Origin: Sphingomonas caeni
GTDB lineage: Bacteria > Pseudomonadota > Alphaproteobacteria > Sphingomonadales > Sphingomonadaceae
Assembly (NCBI RefSeq): GCF_026013415.1
Contig: NZ_JAPDOK010000002.1
Coordinates: 124,001-188,000, forward strand
DNA: 64,000 nt
Direction of reading: 5' to 3'
Shown here: in pieces, positions 19,778-42,832 of the stretch
How the letters are laid out: every line of letters begins with the position of its first letter
Position numbering within the stretch: the stretch's first letter is position 1
Notes under the pieces: model-generated
The model's database searches: none
Told to the model about the DNA's origin: nothing
What the model saw: only the letters and a program-made list of their open reading frames with translations
Position numbers and translations under genes: made by a program

Positions 19778-19933
19778 ATGGAAAAACTTCCGGAGAATCG
19801 GGAGCCCGATACGACGATCGCTGGCAATGACGACACGTGGGTGAAGCCCGAGCTTGTGTCGTTCCTGCCCGCCAAGGCCGCGGAGGGCATCTCGTATCGG
19901 CCGACCGACGGCATCAGCAATCTGACTCCCTGA
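19778..19933 (+). CDS. Candidate RiPP precursor peptide with lasso-like leader and core
   Basis: A 51-residue ORF with a good ribosome binding site (AGGGG seven bases before ATG 19778) between the methyltransferase and sulfotransferase genes. The hydrophilic N-terminus is followed by WVKPEL at residues 21-26, which fits the YxxPxL leader motif that PqqD-type RRE proteins bind in lasso precursors. After AAE the predicted core GISYRPTDGISNLTP (37-51) starts with Gly and has Asp at position 8. This is the usual set-up for an 8-residue macrolactam ring and a 7-residue tail. Against it, the leader has Ala instead of Thr at -2, and no B2 leader protease is visible nearby. Tyr, Ser, Thr and Arg in the core could accept the sulfo, phospho or methyl groups suggested by neighbouring genes. 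Confidence 0.75.
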   Translation: MEKLPENREPDTTIAGNDDTWVKPELVSFLPAKAAEGISYRPTDGISNLTP

Positions 19934-27065: not shown

Positions 27066-27209
27066 ATGGCCGGTCGGCGTTCGGACATCAAACAGATTGT
27101 CTCGAAATCTGCTTCCTTTGAAGCTGGCCCGGCCGCCGGATCTGGTGCACAAATCACGGAGAATGGGGGCAGTTATTGCGTGTTATGGGTGAGCGTTCTC
27201 CGGGGGTAA
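27066..27209 (+). CDS. Possible third small precursor ORF overlapping the cyclase-like gene start
   Basis: A 47-codon frame opening with ATG 27066 and ending GGSYCVLWVSVLRG at a TAA inside the next gene's first codons. It has an alternating Ala/Gly-rich middle and a hydrophobic Cys-containing tail, loosely like the tail of the ORF at 31726. Its only Shine-Dalgarno-like stretch (GGGAG) is two bases from the ATG, which is too close. It could equally be unused leader sequence of the following operon. I cannot assign a family. Confidence 0.3.
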   Translation: MAGRRSDIKQIVSKSASFEAGPAAGSGAQITENGGSYCVLWVSVLRG

Positions 27210-29317
27210 CGGAGCAGGATGGTGCGCGGTTGGGCCATCATCTCGACTTTCTGGTTCCCGACGACTGCGAGGTGCTGATCGACGCGAAGGCGCGGGTGCG
27301 CCTTGCCGCCGCGGCGATGACGATGCCCGCCATCCCGCGGGTCGCGGTCGAAATCCGGCTGGCGGCCGGCCAATCGCAGGTCGATCTCCAGCAATGTTTC
27401 CTGCGCAGCGCGGGCGATTTTCCGCGGCTGGCTGCCTATTGCCAGGCCAAGGCGGCCGAACGGCCCGACTGGGTGCCGGTAGCGCACTATTGCCGCGATC
27501 TGGCCGATCCCGGGCAGGCGTTTGGCGAGAGCGTCACCGAACTCTATCTCGAACACGACCTGCTCGAGACGGGCGAGACGCCATCCGCGCCGGCGCTGTT
27601 CGTGGACCTGCCGGGCGATCCCGCATCGGCGCGCGCGCTTGCTCTGGAAACGGCGCGACGGTTGCAGGGCGCGGCGTTGCCCGGAACCGGCACCGCGATC
27701 GGCCGGATCTTCGATGCCTGCCGCGGCGACGCCTTTGTCTCGCATATCGGCTGCATGACCGGCCGGACCGTCCCCGGTGTGCGGATCAACGTGAAGGGCA
27801 TTCGCCCCGCAGCGCTCGAGCCTTTCCTCAAGGAGTGCGGCTGGCCCGGCGATAGCCGCCGCGGCTCTGCCCTGTTCGATTTTGCTGTCGGGGGATGCGA
27901 CCGGGTCACCCTCGCCTTCGATATCGTCGGCGCGCTGCTGCCCAATTTCGGCGTCGAGTGCTTCTTCGACCACCAGCCGGCCGAGGATCCGGCCTGGCGC
28001 CGCATGTTGAGGCTGCTCACCGCCGATGGCCTGTGCGCGGCGGACAAGGGCGATGCCTTTCAGACAATTCCGGCGACGATCACCCCCGCAGGATGGACCG
28101 GAGCCTGGCCCACGGACATGGCGGTCGGCGCGATGCTGGGCAGCGACCGCGAATTCACCAGCTATGCCCGGCGCGCGGTGCATCTCAAGATCGTCGACGG
28201 CATGGGCGGCAGCCGGAGCGCCAAGGCCTATTATGGCGCGGGCTACCTCACCATCGCGCCGCTGACCGATCCCGAGCACCGCCGCTGGCGCCCCACATTG
28301 GCCGCCCCCGCACCACGCCGCTCGGTCCGCGCCGACCATGTGGCGCTGGCCGATCCCGCCGACCGGGCGATCGCGCACGGCGTCGAGTATCTGCTCCAGA
28401 CCCAGCGCCAATCCGGCCTGTGGCGCGAATTCCCGGTGCCTTCGGGGATCAGCGACAATTGGGTGAGCGGCTTCATCGGGACCCAGCTCGTCGCAACCGG
28501 CGACCCGCGCGGCCGCGCCGCCGCCGAGGAAGCGCTCGACCGCTTGCTGACGCGCCAGCGGCCCGATTCGGGATGGGCCTATAATGAGGACCATCCGACC
28601 GACAGCGACAGCACCGCCTGGATATTGCGGCTGATGCGCAGCCTGGGGCGGCTTGAAGAACCCGCCGCCCGGCGCGCCATCGCGTTCGTGCGGGCGCATG
28701 TCCAACCCTCGGGAGGGATCGTCTCGTTCCGCGAGCGCCAGCCGGTGGCGGACGTCGCGAAGCTTCCCGACGAGTCCTCGCTCGCGGGATGGATGGCGGT
28801 GCATGACTGCGTGACCGCAGGCGCGGCGCCGTTCGGGGGGCCGGCCGTGGCGGACTATCTGCTGGCCAATGAGGCGGATGGCGCATGGCGCGCCTATTGG
28901 TGGGTGCATGACGCCTTCGCCTCCGCGCTCGCGGTCGAGGCGCTGCTGGCGTCGGACCATGCGGCCAAGCCCGAATGGCGCGCGCGGGTGCAGCGGCGCG
29001 CGACAGGCTGGATCGAGGAGGCGCTGGCGAGCGAGCGATGCGAATATTTCGACCTCGCCTTCGCGGTCCGTGCGCTGATCGGCACCGATCCCGAGGCGGC
29101 GAAAGACGCGCTGGTCGCCGCCGCCGCCGCGCGCATGCTCGCCGATCAGGCCGAGGACGGCAGCTGGCGCCCGAGCGCACGGATGCGGGTTCCCTGGCAT
29201 GCGGCGATGCCGGACAGCATGACGGTGGAAACCGTCGCCTATGATCGCCAGGCCGGTTTCACCACCGCGGCGGTGATCGCGACACTGGCGATGCTGCGCG
29301 ACGGGCGAATGCCATGA
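27185..29317 (+). CDS. Terpene-cyclase-like (alpha/alpha toroid) protein with a novel N-terminal domain
   Basis: A protein of about 710 residues in two parts. Residues of about 1-370 form a domain I do not recognise (FLVPDDCEVLIDAKARVRLA, GVRINVKGIRP, ALLPNFGVECFFDHQ). The rest resembles prenyltransferase/squalene-cyclase repeats: LLQTQRQSGLWREFPV, LLTRQRPDSGWAYNED and TDSDSTAWILRLM. The last contains D473-S-D475-S, matching the class II cyclase motif DxDDTA with the final Asp replaced by Ser but the usual acid Asp kept. A long helical barrel follows. The start is ATG 27185 or TTG 27176, and neither has an ideal ribosome binding site. It is first in an operon with Nif11, PqqD and a second AsnB-like gene, so it probably acts on a peptide or its lipid/isoprenoid partner. 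Confidence 0.7.
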   Translation: MGERSPGVTEQDGARLGHHLDFLVPDDCEVLIDAKARVRLAAAAMTMPAIPRVAVEIRLAAGQSQVDLQQCFLRSAGDFPRLAAYCQAKAAERPDWVPVAHYCRDLADPGQAFGESVTELYLEHDLLETGETPSAPALFVDLPGDPASARALALETARRLQGAALPGTGTAIGRIFDACRGDAFVSHIGCMTGRTVPGVRINVKGIRPAALEPFLKECGWPGDSRRGSALFDFAVGGCDRVTLAFDIVGALLPNFGVECFFDHQPAEDPAWRRMLRLLTADGLCAADKGDAFQTIPATITPAGWTGAWPTDMAVGAMLGSDREFTSYARRAVHLKIVDGMGGSRSAKAYYGAGYLTIAPLTDPEHRRWRPTLAAPAPRRSVRADHVALADPADRAIAHGVEYLLQTQRQSGLWREFPVPSGISDNWVSGFIGTQLVATGDPRGRAAAEEALDRLLTRQRPDSGWAYNEDHPTDSDSTAWILRLMRSLGRLEEPAARRAIAFVRAHVQPSGGIVSFRERQPVADVAKLPDESSLAGWMAVHDCVTAGAAPFGGPAVADYLLANEADGAWRAYWWVHDAFASALAVEALLASDHAAKPEWRARVQRRATGWIEEALASERCEYFDLAFAVRALIGTDPEAAKDALVAAAAARMLADQAEDGSWRPSARMRVPWHAAMPDSMTVETVAYDRQAGFTTAAVIATLAMLRDGRMP

Positions 29318-29556
29318 CGGTCGCCGCCGCATTGACCTTTATCCGGCGGGCCCGGGCCGATCCGGCGATTCGCGCGGCGCTCGAATGTGCATCGGAAGCC
29401 GCGGCGACGGGCGCGATCTGCGCGATCGGCGCCGATCATGGCCTCGCCTTTTCCGAATCCGATTTCGACCGCGCCTTTGCGATCGAATGGACGGCGCGAT
29501 GGGCGCATTTCGGCAATCCGGACACGACAATCGACAAGGGAGGGAAGGGCAAGTGA
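29314..29556 (+). CDS. Nif11-domain small protein
   Basis: An 80-residue protein whose first 60 residues match the Nif11 fold pattern: ALTFIRRARADPAIRAALE, then AICAIGADHGLAFSESDFDRA. Nif11 domains serve as leaders of several RiPP precursors but also occur as free helper proteins. After the domain comes only TARWAHFGNPDTTIDKGGKGK, with no Cys or glycine-rich core, so this copy looks more like a helper or a degenerate precursor than a typical substrate. It overlaps the gene before it as ATGA and the PqqD gene after it as GTGA. Confidence 0.8.
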   Translation: MTVAAALTFIRRARADPAIRAALECASEAAATGAICAIGADHGLAFSESDFDRAFAIEWTARWAHFGNPDTTIDKGGKGK

Positions 29557-29849
29557 GTGAGGGTGTTGCGAACGGGGCGGGCGACGAGCGGCTGAGCGCC
29601 AGCGAGCAGGTGATGGCGATCAAGGTCGAGGAGGAGGTGATCGCCTTCCACATGGATCATGGCCGCTATTTCGGGCTGCGCGGCGCGGCGGGCCTGGTGT
29701 GGGAGCGGATCCAGGCCGGCACCGACCGCGAAAGCGCGATCGCGGCGGAGATCCTCGCCAGCCATCGCGGCGATCCCGATCATATCCGCGCCGATGTGGC
29801 AAAGGCGATCGCCGAGATGAAGCGGCTGGGCATCCTGATCGGCGGCTAG
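29553..29849 (+). CDS. PqqD-family (RRE) protein, third copy
   Basis: A 98-residue PqqD-like protein: VMAIKVEEEVIAFHMDHGRYFGLRG, then GLVWERIQAGT and a helical C-terminus ending MKRLGILIGG. The start is GTG 29553, overlapping the Nif11 stop as GTGA, with GGGAGG upstream. A longer open frame upstream is out of phase with Nif11 and not likely to be used. It lies three bases before the second AsnB-like gene, the classic arrangement of recognition protein plus cyclase. Confidence 0.87.
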   Translation: MSEGVANGAGDERLSASEQVMAIKVEEEVIAFHMDHGRYFGLRGAAGLVWERIQAGTDRESAIAAEILASHRGDPDHIRADVAKAIAEMKRLGILIGG

Positions 29850-29852
29850 CGC

Positions 29853-31640
29853 ATGACCGTCTTCGCCTTTGCGCTGGCGCTCGAGCCCGGGAGGCCGCTC
29901 GACCGGTTCGACACGCATCCGCTGCGGCCCGGGCTGGCCGAGCCCGGCACGCTCCATATGCGCAGCGGCCTGGGCTGGCACGCGGCCTGGCGCAATGCGC
30001 CAACGGGGCTGCAGACCGACTTCGCGGCGGAGGCCGACGATCTGGTCGCGATCACGGCCGGACGGTTCGAGCGGCGCGGTGCGCTGTGCCTTGACCTCGG
30101 CGTGGCGCCGGGCGCGCGCGATGCGGTGCTGCTGATCGCCGCCTATCGCCGCTGGGGCGAGGCGATGCTCGATCGGCTGCGCGGCGACTTCGCGTTCCTG
30201 CTCTGGGACGCACGCCAGCGCCGGCTGATCGCCGCGCGCGACCAGCTCGGCTGCTCGCCTCTCTTCTACCGCGAGCATGACGGCGTGCTGCTGGTGGGCA
30301 CCGCATTGGACGCACTCCGCGATCACGATCGCGCCGGATTGAGCCTCGACGAGAACTTCATCGGCGATCTGCTGCTGCAGGGCATGCCGGCCCAGCATGA
30401 GACCAGCGTCTATGCCGAGATCCGGCGCGTGCCGCCCGCGCGTGCCCTGCGCTTTGCCGGCGGACAGGTGGAGACGCGGCGCTACTGGTCGTTTCCCGCT
30501 TATGGCGATCCGCTGATCCTGACGTCGCGCGCGGACTATGCCGAGCGTTTCCATGCGGGGCTGCGCGACGCCGTTGCCGAGCGGCTGCCCGAGACCGGGC
30601 CGGTCGTGATCCTGATGAGCGGCGGGCTCGATTCGACCGCGGTCGCCGCGGTTGCCGCCGAGATATTGGGGCCCGAGGGAGCGCGGGCGCGGATCAAGGC
30701 CTATACCACCGTGTTTCCCGGCTTTCCCGAACAGGAAGGGCATTATGCTGCGCTCGCGGCCCAGCATCTGGGCATCGAGCATCATCTGGTGGAAGCCGGC
30801 GACTATCTGGGGGCGCCGCTTCCCGATCACGACGCCTGGCTTCGCCCCGAGCCCGGCGCGATCGCCGGATTGCTCGCCGAATCGCGCGCCGCCGAGGCTG
30901 CCGCGGCGGGAGGCGGCGTATTGCTCAACGGGCTCGGCGCCGATGTCTATCTCCACCCGCCCGGTGCCAGCTTCTGGCATATCGCGGCGCGCGGCGCCCG
31001 CGCGCTACCCGATACGACGCGGCATGTTCGGCTGTTCGGCCGCATGCCGGACCTGCGCGTGCGGGCGTCGCTCGGCCGGTTGCGGCGCCGGCTGGCCGCG
31101 AAGCCCGCGCCTAAGCTCCCGGCCTGGATCGATGCCGGGTTCGCGGCGCACTCGGGACTGATCGCGCGCACCGCCGCACGTTATGCCGAAAATCGCGAGG
31201 CCGGGGCCGCCCGGCTGACCTCACCCTATTGGGCGGCGCTGCTGACCATGGGGCATCCAGCGACGACCGGACGTTCGCTGCATCCCGCCCACCCGCTGGC
31301 CAGCCTGCCGCTGATCGAGCTTGCGATGCGCCTGCCGCGGGCTGCGGTGACCGACAAGGCGATCCTGCGCTGGGCGATGCGCGGGCGCCTGCCCGACGCG
31401 ATCGTCGATCGCGCCAAGACGCCGCTGGGGAGCATCGGTACCGACCTGATCGAGCGCGACCCGCGCATCGCCGCGCGCACGCGATCCCTGATCGAGGGAC
31501 AGGCGGGCGCGCTCTCGCGCTTCGTCGATCCCGCGCTGGCGATCGATGCGCTCGGCCATGCGCAGGGAAGGGACCGGGTGGCGCTGATGAACCTCGAACT
31601 CCTGGCGGCGTGGTTCGCGAGCGGCGCTGTCCAGTCCTGA
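29853..31640 (+). CDS. Asparagine-synthetase-like protein (lasso cyclase-like), second copy
   Basis: A 595-residue AsnB homologue. The N-terminus MTVFAFALALEPG has no Cys2, so there is no glutaminase nucleophile, although the degenerate glutaminase domain remains (GDFAFLLWDARQRRLIAARD, LGCSPLFYREHDG). The PP-loop is SGGLDSTAV (from Ser256). LNGLGADVYLHPP stands where AsnB has a GEGGDE-type loop, so this nucleotide-site loop is altered (GLGAD). Downstream are SLHPAHPLASLPLIELAMRLP and RWAMRGRLPDAIVDRAKTP. It follows PqqD by three bases and precedes a small precursor-like gene by 85 bases. The chemistry could be amide or other adenylation-driven bond formation. Confidence 0.86.
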   Translation: MTVFAFALALEPGRPLDRFDTHPLRPGLAEPGTLHMRSGLGWHAAWRNAPTGLQTDFAAEADDLVAITAGRFERRGALCLDLGVAPGARDAVLLIAAYRRWGEAMLDRLRGDFAFLLWDARQRRLIAARDQLGCSPLFYREHDGVLLVGTALDALRDHDRAGLSLDENFIGDLLLQGMPAQHETSVYAEIRRVPPARALRFAGGQVETRRYWSFPAYGDPLILTSRADYAERFHAGLRDAVAERLPETGPVVILMSGGLDSTAVAAVAAEILGPEGARARIKAYTTVFPGFPEQEGHYAALAAQHLGIEHHLVEAGDYLGAPLPDHDAWLRPEPGAIAGLLAESRAAEAAAAGGGVLLNGLGADVYLHPPGASFWHIAARGARALPDTTRHVRLFGRMPDLRVRASLGRLRRRLAAKPAPKLPAWIDAGFAAHSGLIARTAARYAENREAGAARLTSPYWAALLTMGHPATTGRSLHPAHPLASLPLIELAMRLPRAAVTDKAILRWAMRGRLPDAIVDRAKTPLGSIGTDLIERDPRIAARTRSLIEGQAGALSRFVDPALAIDALGHAQGRDRVALMNLELLAAWFASGAVQS

Positions 31641-31725: not shown

Positions 31726-31881
31726 ATGCGCGACGAGCAGATGATTTCGTTCGAGATGCCGGAATATAAAGACGCCGAGATCGTGGATTATGGCAGCGCG
31801 AACGATATCGTGCGCACGTCTCCGGACGATCATGGCCTGGGGACCGACGGCGCTTCCTGCTGCAGCTGGTACCTTTCCTGA
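31726..31881 (+). CDS. Candidate RiPP precursor peptide with C-terminal Cys-Cys core
   Basis: A 51-residue ORF directly after the second AsnB-like gene, with GGGGAGG eight bases before ATG 31726. The leader contains EYKDAEIVDYGSANDIVRT (13-31), whose Tyr, Ile and Gly spacing fits the lasso-type motif YxxPxLxxxG with Ala in place of Pro. The tail is rich in Gly and small residues and ends GTDGASCCSWYLS. No Gly/Ala/Ser/Cys start residue with an Asp/Glu at 7-9 is apparent, so a standard lasso fold is unlikely. The two adjacent Cys, Ser and aromatic residues may be the modified positions. The sequence before it is AT-rich (31680-31695), unlike the rest of the window, suggesting its own promoter. 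Confidence 0.75.
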   Translation: MRDEQMISFEMPEYKDAEIVDYGSANDIVRTSPDDHGLGTDGASCCSWYLS

Positions 31882-33129: not shown

Positions 33130-34193
33130 TGCAAGCGGCGCTCGCCGCGGGCGAGATCGCCTATGACCGGGAAGCAGATGGCTGGCGGGTTACCGGCTTT
33201 CGCATCGCGCGCGCGATCCTGGGCGATGATGCTTTCCGCAAGCCCGATTTCGCGCCGCTCGCACTCGACGCGCTGCCGCCGGCGCTTGCCGCCGCGGTGC
33301 GCCGGGGCGAGACGCTGCAGCGGCTCTGGACGGTGCCGCCCCCCGAAGCCGCCTGGCCGGTGCGCCGCACCTTCGCCGCGGCCTTCGCGCCGCGCCGGAT
33401 CGGCTATCTGCGCGAGGCGATGGGCGCCGAGGCCGAGCGGCTGCTCGCCGGCGCGGAAGGCGACGGCTTCGATCTCGACCGCGATTTCGCGCAGCCCCTC
33501 ACCGAATGGGCGATCGCGCGGCTCTATGGCATCGATCCCGCGGAGATCGGCCGCGTCGCGCAGATGAGCGGCCCGCTCGCCACCGCCTTTTCATTCGGCG
33601 TGCGCGACCGGATCGGCGCAGCGATGGCGATGGCGACGATCGAGCCGGTCCTGACCGCGCTGCTGCGCGCACCCTCGCGCGGCGGCGCGGCGGCACTGGA
33701 GACGGTCCAGGCGGCGATGGCGTCGGGCGAGATCAGCGCGGACGAAGCGCTTTCCTGGATGGCGCTGTCGCTGCTCGGCGGGCTGCAGACCAACCGGCGC
33801 TTCCTGGTCCAGTGGCTTTCCCGGCCCGCGCCGCCGGAGGGCGAAACCGGAAATAGCGACGCCAGCTGGCTCCAGACCGCCGCCGAGCTTGCGCGGCGCA
33901 ACGTCGTCGTCGACAGCATCGCGCGCCAGAGCCGCTGCCCGCTGGCGCTCGACGCGGCGGCGATCCCGGCGGGCGCGACCTTCTTGCTCGATCTCGAGCG
34001 GATCAATCACGATCCGGCGCGCGCGGAGGGCAGCCATCTCTCGTTCGGGCACGGCGCGCATATGTGCATCGGCCGGCATTTGGCGATGATGCAGATCGAA
34101 AGCGCGGGCCGCGTGGTTGCGGGCTGGCCGGCGGCACGGCGCGCGTCGCTCGCGCTGGCCGCCGGTCCGATGAGCGGAGCGGCACCCCATTGA
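33066..34193 (+). CDS. Cytochrome P450, short form
   Basis: About 375 residues. The heme-thiolate motif is LSFGHGAHMCIGRHLA with the ligand Cys334. The K-helix ExxR is ELARR. The I-helix region reads GGLQTNRRF, where the usual acid before Thr is Gln. IPAGATFLLDLERINHDP fits the segment before the heme loop. At about 375 residues it is slightly shorter than typical soluble bacterial P450s. ATG 33066 has AAAAAGG eight bases upstream; ATG 33084 is the alternative. It shares one base with the next gene (TGATG), so it is coupled to the HprK-like protein and may oxidise the peptide product. No ferredoxin gene is nearby. Confidence 0.88.
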   Translation: MSGAYRMRPEEAPISSKLEAALQAALAAGEIAYDREADGWRVTGFRIARAILGDDAFRKPDFAPLALDALPPALAAAVRRGETLQRLWTVPPPEAAWPVRRTFAAAFAPRRIGYLREAMGAEAERLLAGAEGDGFDLDRDFAQPLTEWAIARLYGIDPAEIGRVAQMSGPLATAFSFGVRDRIGAAMAMATIEPVLTALLRAPSRGGAAALETVQAAMASGEISADEALSWMALSLLGGLQTNRRFLVQWLSRPAPPEGETGNSDASWLQTAAELARRNVVVDSIARQSRCPLALDAAAIPAGATFLLDLERINHDPARAEGSHLSFGHGAHMCIGRHLAMMQIESAGRVVAGWPAARRASLALAAGPMSGAAPH

Positions 34194-35095
34194 TGCTGCG
34201 CCAGCTCGACGGATTGACGATCGCACGCGCGGAGGGCCGCTGGCCCGACGAGGCGGCCGCGGACATCCACTGGAAGCACAGCATTGTCGATGCGCTGCCG
34301 GGCGCCGACGGGTCGCATGCGGCCAGCGAAGACCGGGCCGACGGCCGCTGGACGGTCCATGTTTATGCCGAGGCCGGGTGCACGCATCAGCGCTTCGCGA
34401 TCTCGCCGGACGGCGCCTGCGTCGAATCGCAGGGTATCGCGCGCACCCGGGACGACGAGCTGTGGGGACTGATGTCCGAGCCGGTGATGCGCACCCTCTT
34501 CCGGCTGCGCGGCATCCCTTCCTTTCACGCCGCCTCGCTCAGCCGCGGCGGACGCACCATCCTGATCGCGGCCGAGAAGGGCGGGGGCAAATCGACACTG
34601 TCGGCGGCGCTGGTGCGCGGCGGCTGGACCCTGCTGAGCGACGATCTCACCCGGGTCGAGCGGATCGGCGGGGAATGGCGCGCCCATGCGGGCTATAACC
34701 AGCTCAAGCTGCACGCGGATTCGAAGGCGGCGCTGGGCATCGGCGCTGCGGAGCTCGGCTGGCGCTGGCACGACGCCGATCCTCGCCTGCCGGGGAACAA
34801 GCTGGTGTGGAAGCTGCCCGAGGCGCCGGACCTCGCACCGCGGCGCATCGACGAAATCTTCGTGCTCCAACGCCGCGATCCCCTGCTGACCGCGCCGCGC
34901 CAGCATCGCGTGCCCGCGGTCCACGCGATGCTGGCGCTCCAGCCGCATCTCAGCTGCGATCCCTTCCTGGCCGAGACCGCACCCCGCCGCGGGGATATGG
35001 CGGCGCTGCTGTCGCTCTCGGCAGGCGTGGCGTGCACCGCGCTGACGATGCCGGACGATCTGCAGCGCCTCGCCGAATTCGCCGGCGCGATCTGA
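34193..35095 (+). CDS. HPr kinase-like protein (HprK-like), second copy
   Basis: A 300-residue protein with the HprK-like lead RGIPSFHAASLSRGGRTILI and a Walker A motif AEKGGGKST (Lys133) in which the first Gly is Ala. GGWTLLSDDLTRVER supplies an Asp pair. The nucleotide site therefore looks mostly intact but not canonical. It follows the P450 with a TGATG overlap and ends the peptide locus. Like the first copy, it could phosphorylate a precursor, but it could also have another ligand. The frame is open well upstream in the P450, but ATG 34193 fits the operon. Confidence 0.82.
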   Translation: MLRQLDGLTIARAEGRWPDEAAADIHWKHSIVDALPGADGSHAASEDRADGRWTVHVYAEAGCTHQRFAISPDGACVESQGIARTRDDELWGLMSEPVMRTLFRLRGIPSFHAASLSRGGRTILIAAEKGGGKSTLSAALVRGGWTLLSDDLTRVERIGGEWRAHAGYNQLKLHADSKAALGIGAAELGWRWHDADPRLPGNKLVWKLPEAPDLAPRRIDEIFVLQRRDPLLTAPRQHRVPAVHAMLALQPHLSCDPFLAETAPRRGDMAALLSLSAGVACTALTMPDDLQRLAEFAGAI

Positions 35096-37221: not shown

Positions 37222-40200
37222 TCACCCGCGCTCGGCCACGATCAGGTCGCCGACGCGCTGGACTTCGCGCGAGCGGGCGATCCACACGCGGATCAGCGCG
37301 AGCAGCAGATCGATGTCGACGGGCTTGGCGATATAATCCGATGCGCCGGCGTCGAGGCATTTCTGGCGGTCGCCCTTCATCGCCTTGGCGGTGACCGCGA
37401 CCAGCGGCAGATCGGTCAGCGCCGGCCGCTGACGGATCTGCTGCATCGTTTCGTAGCCGTCCATTTCGGGCATCATGATGTCGATCAGCGCGATATCGAT
37501 GCCGGGCGTCTGTTCGAGGATCAGGATGCCGTCCTTGCCGCGTTCGGCGTGGAGCACCTCGACACCGTAGCTTTCGAGCACGCTGGTGAGCGAATAGATG
37601 TTGCGGATGTCGTCATCGACGATGAGGATGCGCGTGCCTTCGAGCTCGGGAACGCGCGGCGCCGACGCGCTCGCCTCGTCGAGATTTGCGGGTTTCAGCT
37701 CGACGACCTTGGCCGAGCTGGTCATGCGCTCCGCCAGCGTATCGAACACCTGGCGCAGCGCATCCGCCTGGACGGGCTTCTCGGTCACCGCGACCGCGCC
37801 GAAATCGAGCGCCTGGTCGAGCTTGTCCGCGCCCGAAATGACATGGACCGGGATGTGGCGCGTCTGGGGATCATGGTTGAGCAGATCGAGCAGGACGAAG
37901 CCGTCGATATCCGACAGGCCCAGATCGAGCGTGATCGCGTGCGGCTGGAGCTTGCGCGCCATCGCCAGCGAACCCGCACCGGCAACCGAGACGACGCCCT
38001 TGAGTCCCGCGTCGTGCGCGATGTCGAGCAGGATCGAGGCGAAGGACGGATCGTCCTCGATGATCAGCACGAACGGATCGCCATCCAGCGCGTCGCGATC
38101 GTCGCTGAGATCGAAGGCGCTCGGCAGCGCGGTCGGCACCATCGCGCCGCTATTGTCGTAGCGCGCGGGCGTGCCCTCGATCGCGGGCAGCGCCGGCGCG
38201 GCGGCGTTGAACGGAGCGAACAGCGTGAAGGTCGAGCCCTCGCCGGGCACCGAGCGCACCTGCAGCTCGCCGCCCAGCAGGCGGGCGATCTCGCGGCTGA
38301 TCGAGAGGCCGAGACCGGTACCGCCATATTTGCGGCTGGTGGTGCCGTCCGCCTGCTGGAAGGCTTCGAAGATCAGCTTCTGCTTGTCCTTGGGAATGCC
38401 GATGCCGGTATCGGTGACCGAGATCTCGATCGCGCGGTCGACCCCGCGCAGCGCCGGATGGCTGGTGCTCCACCCGCTCGTCGCGGCGCGGACGGCGAGC
38501 GTGACCGACCCCGCCGAGGTGAATTTGAACGCATTCGAAAGCAGATTGAGCACCACCTGCTGGAGCCGCTTTTCGTCGGTGCGGATCGTCGCGGGCAGCT
38601 CGGGATCGAACGCGACGATGAAATCGAGATTCTTGTCGGCCGCGAGCTGGCGGAAGGTGCGCTCCATATGCTGCTTGAGGCCCGCCATCGGCATTTCGCC
38701 GATCTCGATCGAGACGGTGCCCGATTCGATCTTCGACAGGTCGAGGATGTCGTTGATCAGGTTGAGCAGATCCGAGCCCGCCGAGTTGATCGTCCGCGCG
38801 AACTCGACCTGCTTGTCGTTGAGATTGCCCTGCTGGTTGTCCGACAGCAGCTTCGACAGGATCAGCAGCGAGTTGAGCGGGGTCCGCAGCTCGTGGCTCA
38901 TATTGGCGAGGAACTCGGACTTGTACTTGGAGGTGAGCGCCAGCTGCTCGGCCTTCTCCTCGATCGCGCGCCGCGCCATGTCGATCTCGATATTCTTGGC
39001 TTCGACCTGCTTCTTTTCATTCTCGAGCAGCTGCGCCTTCTCCTGCAGCTCCTCGTTGGTGTTGTGGAGCTCCTCCTGCTTGGTGGTGAGTTCGGTCTGG
39101 CGCGCCTGCAGCTCCTGCGTCAGCAGCTGCGACTGTTCGAGCAGGCTCTCGGTGCGCATCGTCGCGGCGATGGTGTTGAGCACGATGCCGACCGATTCCA
39201 TCAGCTGATCGAGGAAATTGTGGTGCGTTTCGTTGAACTGGCTGAACGAGGCGAGCTCGATCACGGCCTGGACCTCGTCCTCGAACAGCGCGGGCAGGAT
39301 CGCCACATTGGCCGGCGCGGCATGGCCGAGCCCCGAGGCGACACGCAGGAACTTCGGCGGAACCTTCTCGAGAAGGATCGGGCGTTTGTCCGCCGCAGCC
39401 TGGCCGACCAGGCCTTCGCGCAGCGCGAAACGCGATTTCAGCGCGTCGCGGCTTTCGGCGCCGTAGCTCGCGGCGAGTTCGAGCACGGTCTCGTCGCCGT
39501 CGCGCGAAGTCACGTAGAACACGCCATATTGCGCGTTCACCAGCGGTGCGAGTTCGGACATGATCAGGTTCGACACCGTCGAAAGGTCGCGCTCGCCCTG
39601 CAACATGCGTGAGAAGCGCGCGAGGTTGGTCTTCAGCCAGTCCTGCTCGGCGTTCTTGAGCGTCTGATCCTTGAGATTACCGATCATCTCGTTGATGTTG
39701 TCCTTGAGCGCGGCCATCTCGCCCGACGCTTCCACCGCGATCGAGCGGGTAAGATCGCCCTTGGTGACCGCGGTGGCCACCTCGGCGATCGAGCGGACCT
39801 GATTGGTCAGGTTCGCGGCCAGCTCGTTGACGTTGTCGGTGAGGTCGCGCCACAGGCCCGCGGCGCCCGGCACGCGCGCCTGGCCGCCGAGCTTGCCCTC
39901 GATGCCCACCTCGCGGGCCATGTTGGTCACCTGGTCGCCGAACGCCGAAAGCGTGTCGATCATGAAGTTGATCGTTTCGGCCAGCGCGGCGATCTCGCCC
40001 TTGGCGTCCACGGTCAGCTTGCGCTTGAGATTGCCCTGCGCCACCGCGGTCACCACGTCGGCGATGCCGCGCACCTGGTTGGTCAGGTTGGTCGCCATCA
40101 GGTTGACGTTGTCGGTCAGATCCTTCCACGTGCCGCCGACGCCGGGCACCTGCGCCTGCCCGCCCAATTTGCCCTCGGTGCCCACCTCGCGCGCGACGCG

Positions 40201-42606
40201 CGTCACTTCCGAGGCGAAGCCGTTGAGCTGATCGACCATCGTGTTGATGGTGTTCTTGAGTTCGAGGATCTCGCCCTTCACGTCGACGGTGATCTTCTTG
40301 GACAGGTCGCCCTTGGCCACCGCGGTGGTCACGTCGGCAATGTTGCGGACCTGGCCGGTGAGGTTCGCTGCCATCAGGTTCACATTGTCGGTCAAGTCGG
40401 CCCAGGTGCCCGCGACGCCGCGCACCTGCGCCTGCCCGCCGAGGTTGCCCTCGGTGCCCACTTCGCGCGCCACGCGCGTCACTTCGCTGGCGAAGGAATT
40501 GAGCTGATCGACCATCGTGTTGATCGTGTTCTTGAGCTCGAGAATCTCGCCCTTCACGTCGACGGTGATCTTCTTCGAAAGATCGCCGAGCGCAACGGCG
40601 GTGGTCACCTCGGCGATGTTGCGCACCTGGCCGGTGAGGTTCGCCGCCATCGCGTTCACATTGTCGGTCAGGTCCTTCCAGGTGCCGCCGACGCCCTCGA
40701 CCTGCGCCTGTCCGCCCAGCTTGCCGTCCGAACCCACTTCGCGCGCCACGCGAGTGACCTCGGAAGCGAAGGAGTTGAGCTGATCGACCATCGTGTTGAT
40801 GGTGTTCTTGAGCTCGAGGATCTCGCCCTTCACATCGACCGTGATCTTCTTGGACAGGTCGCCCTTCGCCACCGCGGTGGTCACGTCGGCGATGTTGCGC
40901 ACCTGGCCGGTGAGGTTGCCCGCCATCAGGTTGACGTTGTCGGTCAGGTCCTTCCAGGTGCCGCCGACGCCCTCGACCTGCGCCTGTCCGCCCAGCTTGC
41001 CGTCCGAACCCACTTCGCGCGCCACGCGGGTGACCTCGGACGCGAAGGAGTTGAGCTGATCGACCATCGTGTTGATGGTGTTCTTGAGCTCGAGAATCTC
41101 GCCCTTCACGTCGACCGTGATCTTCTTCGACAGGTCGCCCTTCGCCACCGCGGTGGTCACATCGGCGATGTTGCGGACCTGGCCGGTGAGATTGTCGGCC
41201 ATCAGATTGACGTTGTCGGTCAGATCCTTCCACGTGCCCGCAACGCCGGGCACCTGCGCCTGACCGCCCAATTTGCCCTCGGTACCGACCTCACGCGCGA
41301 CGCGCGTCACTTCCGAGGCAAAGCCGTTGAGCTGATCGACCATGACGTTGATCGTGTTCTTGAGCTCGAGGATCTCGCCCTTCACGTCGACCGTGATCTT
41401 CTTCGAAAGATCGCCCAGCGCCACCGCCGTCGTGACCTCGGCAATGTTGCGCACCTGGCCGGTGAGATTGTCGGCCATCAGATTGACGTTGTCGGTCAGA
41501 TCCTTCCAGGTGCCGGCCACGCCCGGCACCTGCGCCTGCCCGCCGAGCTTGCCCTCGGTACCGACCTCGCGCGCCACGCGCGTCACTTCCGAGGCGAATC
41601 CGTTGAGCTGATCGACCATCACGTTGATCGTGTTCTTGAGCTCGAGGATCTCGCCCTTCACGTCGACCGTGATCTTCTTCGAGAGGTCGCCCGAGGCCAC
41701 CGCGGTGGTCACTTCGGCGATGTTGCGCACCTGGCCGGTGAGGTTGTCGGCCATCAGGTTGACGTTGTCGGTCAGGTCCTTCCAGGTGCCGGCAACGCCT
41801 TCTACCCGCGCCTGCCCGCCGAGCTTGCCCTCGGTGCCCACCTCACGCGCCACGCGCGTCACTTCGCTGGCGAAGGAATTGAGCTGGTCCACCATCACGT
41901 TGATGGTGTTCTTGAGTTCGAGGATCTCGCCCTTCACCTCGACGGTGATCTTCTTCGAGAGATCGCCCGAGGCCACCGCCGTCGTGACCTCGGCGATGTT
42001 GCGCACCTGGCCGGTGAGATTGTCGGCCATCAGGTTGACGTTGTCGGTCAAATCCTTCCACGTACCGGCCACGCCCTTCACCTTGGCCTGACCGCCCAAT
42101 TTGCCTTCGGTGCCGACCTCGCGCGCGACGCGCGTCACTTCGGACGCGAAGGAGGCGAGCTGCTCGACCATCGTGTTCACGACCTTGCCGATGCGCAGGA
42201 ATTCGCCGCGCAAGGGGCGGCCGTCGATCTCGACGGTCATCGATTGCGACAGGTCGCCCTTGGCGACCGCGCCGATCACGCGGCTGACCTCGGCGGTCGG
42301 CTGGACCATGTCCTCGATCAAGTCGTTGACCGCGCGCAGCTTGGTCTCCCAGCCGCCGGTGGCGCCGCGGACATGGCCGCGCTGGGTGATCTTGCCTTCC
42401 TTGCCGACGACGCGCGACAGCCGCTCGAACTCGTTGGTCATCTGCTCTTCGAGGCTGACGACCTCGTTGAACAGCAGGGCGATCTCGCCGTCAGGGCCGG
42501 CCAGATCCTCGGGCAGGCGCACCGAGAAATCGCCGCGGCGGAAGCTGCGGAGGGCGGATACGAGTTGGCGGTGGTCGAGGGTTTCGGGGGCGGATTCGGC
42601 GTGCAC
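37222..42606 (-). CDS. Giant HAMP-repeat hybrid histidine kinase
   Basis: A 1794-residue protein. Residues of about 20-1000 are a chain of roughly eleven HAMP-like units of 92 residues (for example [20 protein letters not shown], then [17 protein letters not shown]). A GAF domain, a long coiled coil ([20 protein letters not shown]) and a kinase follow. The kinase has [18 protein letters not shown] as H-box, then [23 protein letters not shown] and [10 protein letters not shown]. Two receivers end it ([13 protein letters not shown] with [10 protein letters not shown] is the second). There is no membrane helix, so it is cytoplasmic and of the osmosensing Nik1-like kind. GTG 42606 is preferred over TTG 42609 because AGGAG is six bases away. 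Confidence 0.94.
39690..42330 (-). repeat. Tandem 276-bp repeat array coding for HAMP units
   Basis: The coding DNA repeats with a 276-base period matching the 92-residue HAMP unit. The phrases [14 protein letters not shown] and KKITV recur nearly unchanged in the middle units, while the outermost ones drift. The pattern suggests recent duplication or gene conversion. Confidence 0.85.
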
Positions 42607-42832
42607 CAATCACTCCTGCATCTTCCCCCCCGGGAAAAACGCATTCACGACCCCCCGGCCGTGAGGCGAGACATATCAGAAGTTTCGTAGCGCGCGCGTT
42701 AAAAAATGCGGCCGGCCTGTCCCGCCATGAAAGGCCTGCCCGGAAACAATCCTGCGCTACCAATCGGATAGAGAAGGGCGCGTCCCTGATGGGAGCGGAT
42801 TCGGTCCGATCATAACCGGCGGGATCGGAGGC

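Follow-up and report, generated by a model that had tools for sequence, protein, structure and literature searches.

A 51-residue open reading frame at positions 31,726–31,881 (plus strand) of a 64-kb window of Sphingomonas caeni contig NZ_JAPDOK010000002.1, the window being the whole stretch of DNA analysed and the frame for all coordinates given here, probably encodes a RiPP precursor processed by lasso-type machinery together with a fused prenyltransferase–terpene cyclase, with chemistry predicted from the peptide and the proteins encoded around it. The architectural features examined for a prenyltransferase–terpene cyclase RiPP pathway are present, as judged from sequence and structural models, and lasso-type machinery is, on the same sequences, the apt description, rather than lasso peptide, because two defining features of the latter fail, namely residue 1 paired with an Asp at 7–9, and a peptidase gene.

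The precursor (MRDEQMISFEMPEYKDAEIVDYGSANDIVRTSPDDHGLGTDGASCCSWYLS) was compared with relatives using a profile built from the precursors of ten related loci, with the window sequence left out, and searched against the 468 window ORFs of 25–150 aa, among which it ranked first (13.4 bits, E = 0.0016), the runner-up scoring 3.0 bits (E = 2.7). A Y-x(0,1)-S C-terminal end occurs in 2 of these 468 small ORFs, and the leader pattern as well in the precursor only. The ORF starts 85 bases 3′ of an AsnB-like gene (29,853–31,640), before which lies the gene for a PqqD-type RRE (29,553–29,849), and sequence inspection found a purine-rich GGGGAGGGG a few bases 5′ of its ATG. An earlier note on this DNA had described an ORF following PqqD and AsnB-like genes, with a strong ribosome site, as a RiPP precursor with a lasso-type leader going with this type of AsnB, and these points are borne out. 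Within the leader, the segment Y14–R30 (YKDAEIVDYGSANDIVR; 31,765–31,815, plus strand), aligned with those of the relatives, is the counterpart of the YxxPxL recognition segment. At −17 to −12, where lasso leaders have YxxPxL, the window reads YKDAEI, with Ala for Pro and Ile for Leu; the Pro is kept in most of the relatives' leaders.

According to the part of PMC10368454 drawn on here, core residue 1 lies 17 residues on from the leader anchor Tyr. Counting from Y14, this rule makes T31 core residue 1 and Asp41 residue +11 (canonical register), correcting the earlier note, which had begun the tail at GTDG, and gives the predicted core TSPDDHGLGTDGASCCSWYLS (31,816–31,878, plus strand). A register shifted by two, with T31 at −2 and Pro33 as alternative start, places Asp41 at +9. 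For the Thr (or Ile/Val) at −2 that is a lasso feature, the window has Val in the canonical register and Thr31 in the shifted one, and Sphingomonadales lasso precursors are reported with Val/Ile at −2 in that same part of PMC10368454. Read in the canonical register, the 11 precursors compared have Thr (6), Val (4) or Ala (1) at −2, and their cores begin with T, N, S, G or A. The textbook core, with Gly or another small residue 1 and Asp/Glu at 7–9, the range given in the same source, was not found in the window, as the earlier note had seen: the canonical register gives Thr1/Asp11 and a ring of 11, outside that range, and the shifted register alone yields Pro1/Asp9, leaving the predicted ring size, 9 or 11 residues depending on register, uncertain. 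Classical lasso cores starting from Gly37 or Gly39 were rejected, because Asp41 would fall at +5 or +3.

Twelve loci with a full-length fusion gene, all from Alphaproteobacteria, were used for comparison (the window, L066, L067, L068, L018, L019, and L101–L106). An intact precursor with leader, Asp, and tail was present at 11 of the 12; at L104 (10,996–11,230, minus strand), the precursor lies in two overlapping frames, one with the leader and the other with the tail, reflecting an assembly error or a frameshift, and this locus was omitted, leaving the window and 10 relatives. Part of the precursors were found by leader or tail pattern among small ORFs, those of L067, L105, and L106 came from full small-ORF lists of the gap with no pattern filter, and that of L101 from a list restricted to small ORFs with an aromatic residue close to the C-terminus. 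In the alignment of homologues that the earlier note had recommended, two elements proved constant: an Asp, which lies between core +8 and +11 in all 11 precursors (canonical register; +8 or +9 in six), and the Y-x(0,1)-S end, shared by all 11, a tail count inflated because some precursors were partly selected by tail pattern. The Cys pair of the earlier note fared differently: none of the 10 relatives has Cys in its core, and the residue is confined to that of the window. Tyr is the sole nucleophilic aromatic residue in 10 of the 11 cores, to which the window core adds His36 and Trp48, this Trp being found in the window alone. Several relatives have very short tails of 4–6 residues. On the window precursor, these elements mark Asp41 (31,846–31,848) as the predicted macrolactam acceptor, Tyr49 of the Trp48–Tyr49 pair (31,867–31,872) as the predicted prenyl acceptor, with Trp48 as alternative, and the C-terminal Ser51 (31,876–31,878) as the predicted phosphorylation site, a terminal Ser occurring in 11/11 precursors and a kinase gene at 12/12 loci.

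Kinase-linked precursors were also collected from loci with no fusion gene, where 29 loci yielded six precursors and the other 23 none by the pattern used. Five of the six end in Ser, and one of the six, from L028, in Tyr-Ser, so the Y-x(0,1)-S tail is found in 11/11 precursors with a fusion versus 1/6 kinase-linked precursors without (Fisher p = 0.001, for sequences that are few and related). Since the fusion-free precursors mostly end in Ser and one in Tyr-Ser, the comparison suggests that Ser accompanies the kinase and Tyr the fusion, with one clear exception. That exception (L028:7,273–7,449, plus strand) lies on contig C18 of the same genome, in a locus of AsnB, kinase, and PqqD genes without a fusion, and its putative precursor ends in GNYS; the Tyr may therefore be read by the kinase.

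The fusion protein (713 aa; 27,176–29,317, plus strand, with a possible ATG start at 27,185) was delimited by modelling and profile searches, and its full AlphaFold2 model has a pLDDT of 78.8. Residues ~16–360 (27,221–28,255) form a predicted ABBA-fold prenyltransferase domain, modelled from 15 sequences (pLDDT 86.6) as five strand pairs alternating with helices, with 12 residues invariant across these sequences. Among the best 50 Foldseek and best 50 VIA-align matches listed, all are soluble prenyltransferases (ABBA, DMATS or cyanobactin types), the best having Z 19.3 (rmsd 3.8, 297 aligned), and the cyanobactin enzyme PagF Z 14.3 (rmsd 4.2, 255 aligned), while phmmer with this domain alone gave no match among PDB sequences. 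Residues ~393–711 (28,352–29,308) correspond to a MstE/XiaE-type class II terpene cyclase: in hmmsearch with a six-sequence profile, this half matched MstE at E = 7e-71 and the prenylcyclase 6IJ1, which we take to be XiaE-like, at 3.9e-63 (27–33% sequence identity to the two), and residues 393–711 superpose on MstE with VIA Z 40.0 (rmsd 2.2, 313 aligned). Within a conserved D-x-D-S-T motif (DSDST, 28,601–28,615), Asp478 aligns to the MstE residue that entries 6sbd and 6sbe carry in altered form, presumably Asp109 given an inferred numbering offset. Assignment as a squalene-hopene cyclase was rejected, the Pfam match being below cut-off and covering only the C-terminal half, with MstE-type matches far stronger. 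The cyclase-like protein that the earlier note had listed as a partner recurs with the precursor, and is this fusion of ABBA prenyltransferase and MstE/XiaE-type cyclase. Relatives of the prenyltransferase domain, either lone or in a split fusion, lie near LanM-type lanthipeptide synthetases at L070, L071, and L069 (Pfam-checked for L070 and L069), and because of this adjacency the domain looks like a member of a peptide-prenyltransferase family, as far as sequence goes.

The fusion, Nif11-like, PqqD, and AsnB genes form a series with overlapping or nearly touching members, the fusion first. The small Nif11-like protein (29,314–29,556, plus strand; Pfam Nif11 E = 4.4e-4, below the curated cut-off) has no evident core, and has counterparts in L066 (41% identical), L101, and L106, adjoining the fusion gene or the precursor; its recurrence with the precursor agrees with the partnership that the earlier note had assigned to it. 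The RRE (B1; plus strand) beside the precursor was identified by Pfam PqqD (40.9 bits, cut-off 23.4), and scored 33.0 bits against the lasso-specific NCBIfam model, below its cut-off of 70. The AsnB-like protein (plus strand; Pfam Asn_synthase E = 2.9e-30) is divergent, with 595 aa and NGLGADVYL in its second conserved motif, and scored 181.9 bits against the lasso model NF033535, below the cut-off of 525. Alignment showed SGGLDS to be intact, and the glutaminase Cys to be absent, here and in all 8 AsnB proteins compared. Lasso cyclases adenylate a carboxylate, which is then attacked by a peptide amine. The sequence fits a ligase using a peptide amine, and amidation by the AsnB protein is disfavoured because the glutaminase Cys is absent. 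Beyond the precursor, on the other side of an opposite-strand acyltransferase gene, are a cytochrome P450 (33,036–34,193, plus strand; Pfam p450 E = 1.1e-7) and an HPr-kinase-like protein, predicted to be a peptide serine kinase (34,190–35,095, plus strand; 18.2 bits with Pfam Hpr_kinase_C, under the cut-off; 37% identity to its counterparts in L066 and L018), with frames overlapping by four bases. The HPr-kinase His-Lys-Asp-Asp residue pattern was matched at 7 of the 12 loci, missing the window and L018, where the residues were read by eye as FHAA..GGGKST..SDD and FHAA..GAGKST..ADD, respectively; L103–L105 were outside this inspection. No gene for the lasso leader peptidase (B2, PF13471) was found in the window cluster, and the genome's only PF13471 matches, at C12:438978 and C19:47942, are both far from it; PF13471 is present in 9/10 selected genomes and 4/4 others, and in 53/101 genus-sample genomes at a stricter limit.

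These genes make up the second (27.2–35.1 kb) of two RiPP regions in the window, delimited by Pfam and codon-position composition. The first (~16.5–24 kb) contains NTP_transf_5, an HPr-kinase-like protein, a methyltransferase, a first precursor, a Stf0 sulfotransferase, and a 2OG oxygenase, with PqqD-like genes and an AsnB on the minus strand. Its precursor (MEKLPENREPDTTIAGNDDTWVKPELVSFLPAKAAEGISYRPTDGISNLTP; 19,778–19,933, plus strand) has a core that is conserved, since a second genome of the genus has a near-identical tail (GISYRPTDGLSNLTP) next to a kinase gene (L126). Between the two regions lies a gene for a B12 radical SAM RiPP C-methyltransferase (TIGR03975; 24,004–25,926, plus strand) with no obvious precursor of its own. 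Positions 37,222–42,609 (minus strand) encode a hybrid histidine kinase of 1795 aa that contains about ten HAMP repeats.

Fusion matches, counting the own genome, were found in 5/397 family genomes (single-sequence search), 23/396 order genomes (profile search, most being short cyclase-half matches), 21/251 genus genomes (likewise mostly short), and 11/289 class genomes at E 1e-10; searching plasmids with the fusion protein yielded 5 partial matches, and a scan of genome contigs with the AsnB protein gave 2 distant loci (L016 and L017). L069 and L020, where the two fusion halves occupy separate frames or are shifted in frame and AsnB has no match, were left out of the 12 loci, and L070, L071, L107, L108, and L109 have the prenyltransferase half only. 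The fusion region of L105 reads as a 691-aa ORF in one reading, and with one internal TGA in another. Genome G925 has three separate fusion loci (L102, L103, and L104), none with an adjoining AsnB gene. Across the 12 loci, the fusion, RRE, and kinase were each found at 12, P450 at 10, AsnB at 8 (truncated at a contig end in one), leader peptidase at 3, NTP_transf_5 at 3, radical SAM at 1 (the window only), and Acyl_transf_3 at 1; the profiles used were iterative and contain their own matches, and the E-values are inflated for that reason. The same profiles gave putative Nif11 matches in L067, L068, L019, L102, L103, L104, and L105. The constant part is RRE, kinase, and fusion, and the variable part is lasso ligase and peptidase, because AsnB is found at 8/12 and peptidase at 3/12 loci versus 12/12 for the other three. 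The closest relative, L066, repeats the RRE and precursor as well as the fusion (43% identity), Nif11-like protein (41%), AsnB (38%), P450 (31%), and kinase (37%). At L101, genes for the RRE, peptidase, AsnB, kinase, and fusion all occur in one cluster.

In the proposed pathway, the RRE would bind the leader, the kinase would phosphorylate Ser51, and the fusion would prenylate Tyr49 (or Trp48) with a long chain and cyclise that chain by protonation, with the P450 oxidising the terpene or the tail. A leader peptidase encoded elsewhere in the genome, or a replacement, would then free the core, whose new N-terminus the AsnB-like ligase would couple to Asp41, closing a ring of 9 to 11 residues. 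Prenylation with cyclisation, and phosphorylation, neither of which the earlier note had considered, are proposed because the conserved tail points to them. According to the part of PMC9266682 drawn on, phosphorylation of the precursor's C-terminal Ser by HPr-like kinases precedes ring closure, as for paeninodin; the site predicted here is not certain, because BsfK phosphorylates Ser3 instead, as given in the part of PMC10368454 cited above. The earlier note had held that the bond formed may not be a classical macrolactam, and this stands only with respect to the textbook core; as a general statement it was too strong, given the Asp in 11/11 precursors and the glutaminase Cys lost from 8/8 AsnB proteins.

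The same gene counts lend some weight to a linear terpenyl-phosphopeptide, in which the fusion and kinase modify the tail, no macrolactam is made, and the AsnB-like protein is otherwise used or a remnant. The prevalence of RRE, kinase, and fusion over AsnB and leader peptidase, the divergence of the window AsnB, and a core register that misfits ring sizes of 7–9 would all suit such a product, and the Asp may serve something else, because intact precursors keep it at the 4 of 12 loci with no AsnB gene. This reading is nevertheless rather unlikely: the window AsnB retains SGGLDS without the glutaminase Cys and stands in a tight gene series with the RRE, L066 keeps the RRE–AsnB pairing, and the Asp is constant. 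An ordinary phosphorylated lasso peptide of the paeninodin kind, with the fusion acting on another substrate, would account for the kinase, RRE, AsnB, lasso-type leader, and terminal Ser, but is improbable, since the fusion gene opens the same series and adjoins such a precursor in 11/12 loci, and the Tyr tail goes with it. A Cys–Cys thioether, disulfide or C-methyl product of the radical SAM enzyme or P450, suggested by the earlier note and by the presence of the TIGR03975 gene and a downstream P450, is very improbable and was rejected, as neither Cys (0/10 relatives' cores) nor the radical SAM gene (0/11 related loci) was found outside the window, where an opposite-strand acyltransferase gene also separates radical SAM from fusion.

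The preferred reading, a lasso-type pathway with a prenyltransferase–cyclase fusion, combines elements with precedents, as prenyltransferase–cyclase fusions and phosphorylated lasso peptides are each already known. NctPC was reportedly described by Hubrich et al. (Chem 2024) as the prenyltransferase-cyclase of a RiPP pathway. According to the part of PMC13290415 used here, it is an ABBA–MstE-like fusion that geranylgeranylates a Trp of a RiPP and then cyclises; by description only, it resembles the present protein in the fusion of an ABBA prenyltransferase to an MstE-like class II cyclase and in acting, as predicted here, on a ribosomal peptide. It would differ in its acceptor, Trp versus the Tyr conserved here in 11/11 (Trp being present in the window precursor only), and differs in its partners, which here are a lasso-type RRE, AsnB-like ligase, HPr-like kinase, and P450. 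With the paeninodin type (PadeK, ThcoK, SyanK, and BsfK), the cluster shares an HPr-kinase-like gene, discrete RRE, AsnB-like ligase, a leader resembling the YxxPxL type, and C-terminal Ser, whereas the fusion and usually a P450 are added here, the peptidase gene is mostly missing, and the spacing of core residue 1 and Asp is atypical. MstE (merosterolic acid synthase) and 6IJ1 are alike in cyclase fold and catalytic Asp position, but are free-standing and act on small prenylated aromatics, unlike the present domain, which shares one polypeptide with its own prenyltransferase. Prenylated lasso peptides, cited with Trp prenylation in the part of PMC13352647 used, likewise carry a prenyl group on an aromatic residue, here predicted, and no terpene cyclase is reported in that part. 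No lasso-type pathway with a prenyltransferase–terpene cyclase fusion was found in the literature searched, and PMC11484575 (on such fusions) or PMC11197979 (on lasso Trp modifications) may describe one.

If the proposal is true, a short gene cluster would macrocyclise a peptide, phosphorylate it, and build a polycyclic terpene on Tyr, with one leader guiding all, joining two RiPP logics found described only apart, and providing a Tyr-directed counterpart to the Trp-directed NctPC. Tentatively, and at odds we consider rather against it, the products may form a lariat or lasso class in which a polycyclic terpene on the tail Tyr is a bulky stopper beside the phosphorylated C-terminal Ser, allowing the very short tails of several relatives, rings of 8 to 11, and non-Gly first residues, and these would be the first terpenoid–lasso hybrids. 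The very short tails would be a clear test of the terpene as a lasso plug, and the 12 loci would give defined starting points for mining Alphaproteobacteria for peptide–terpene hybrids.
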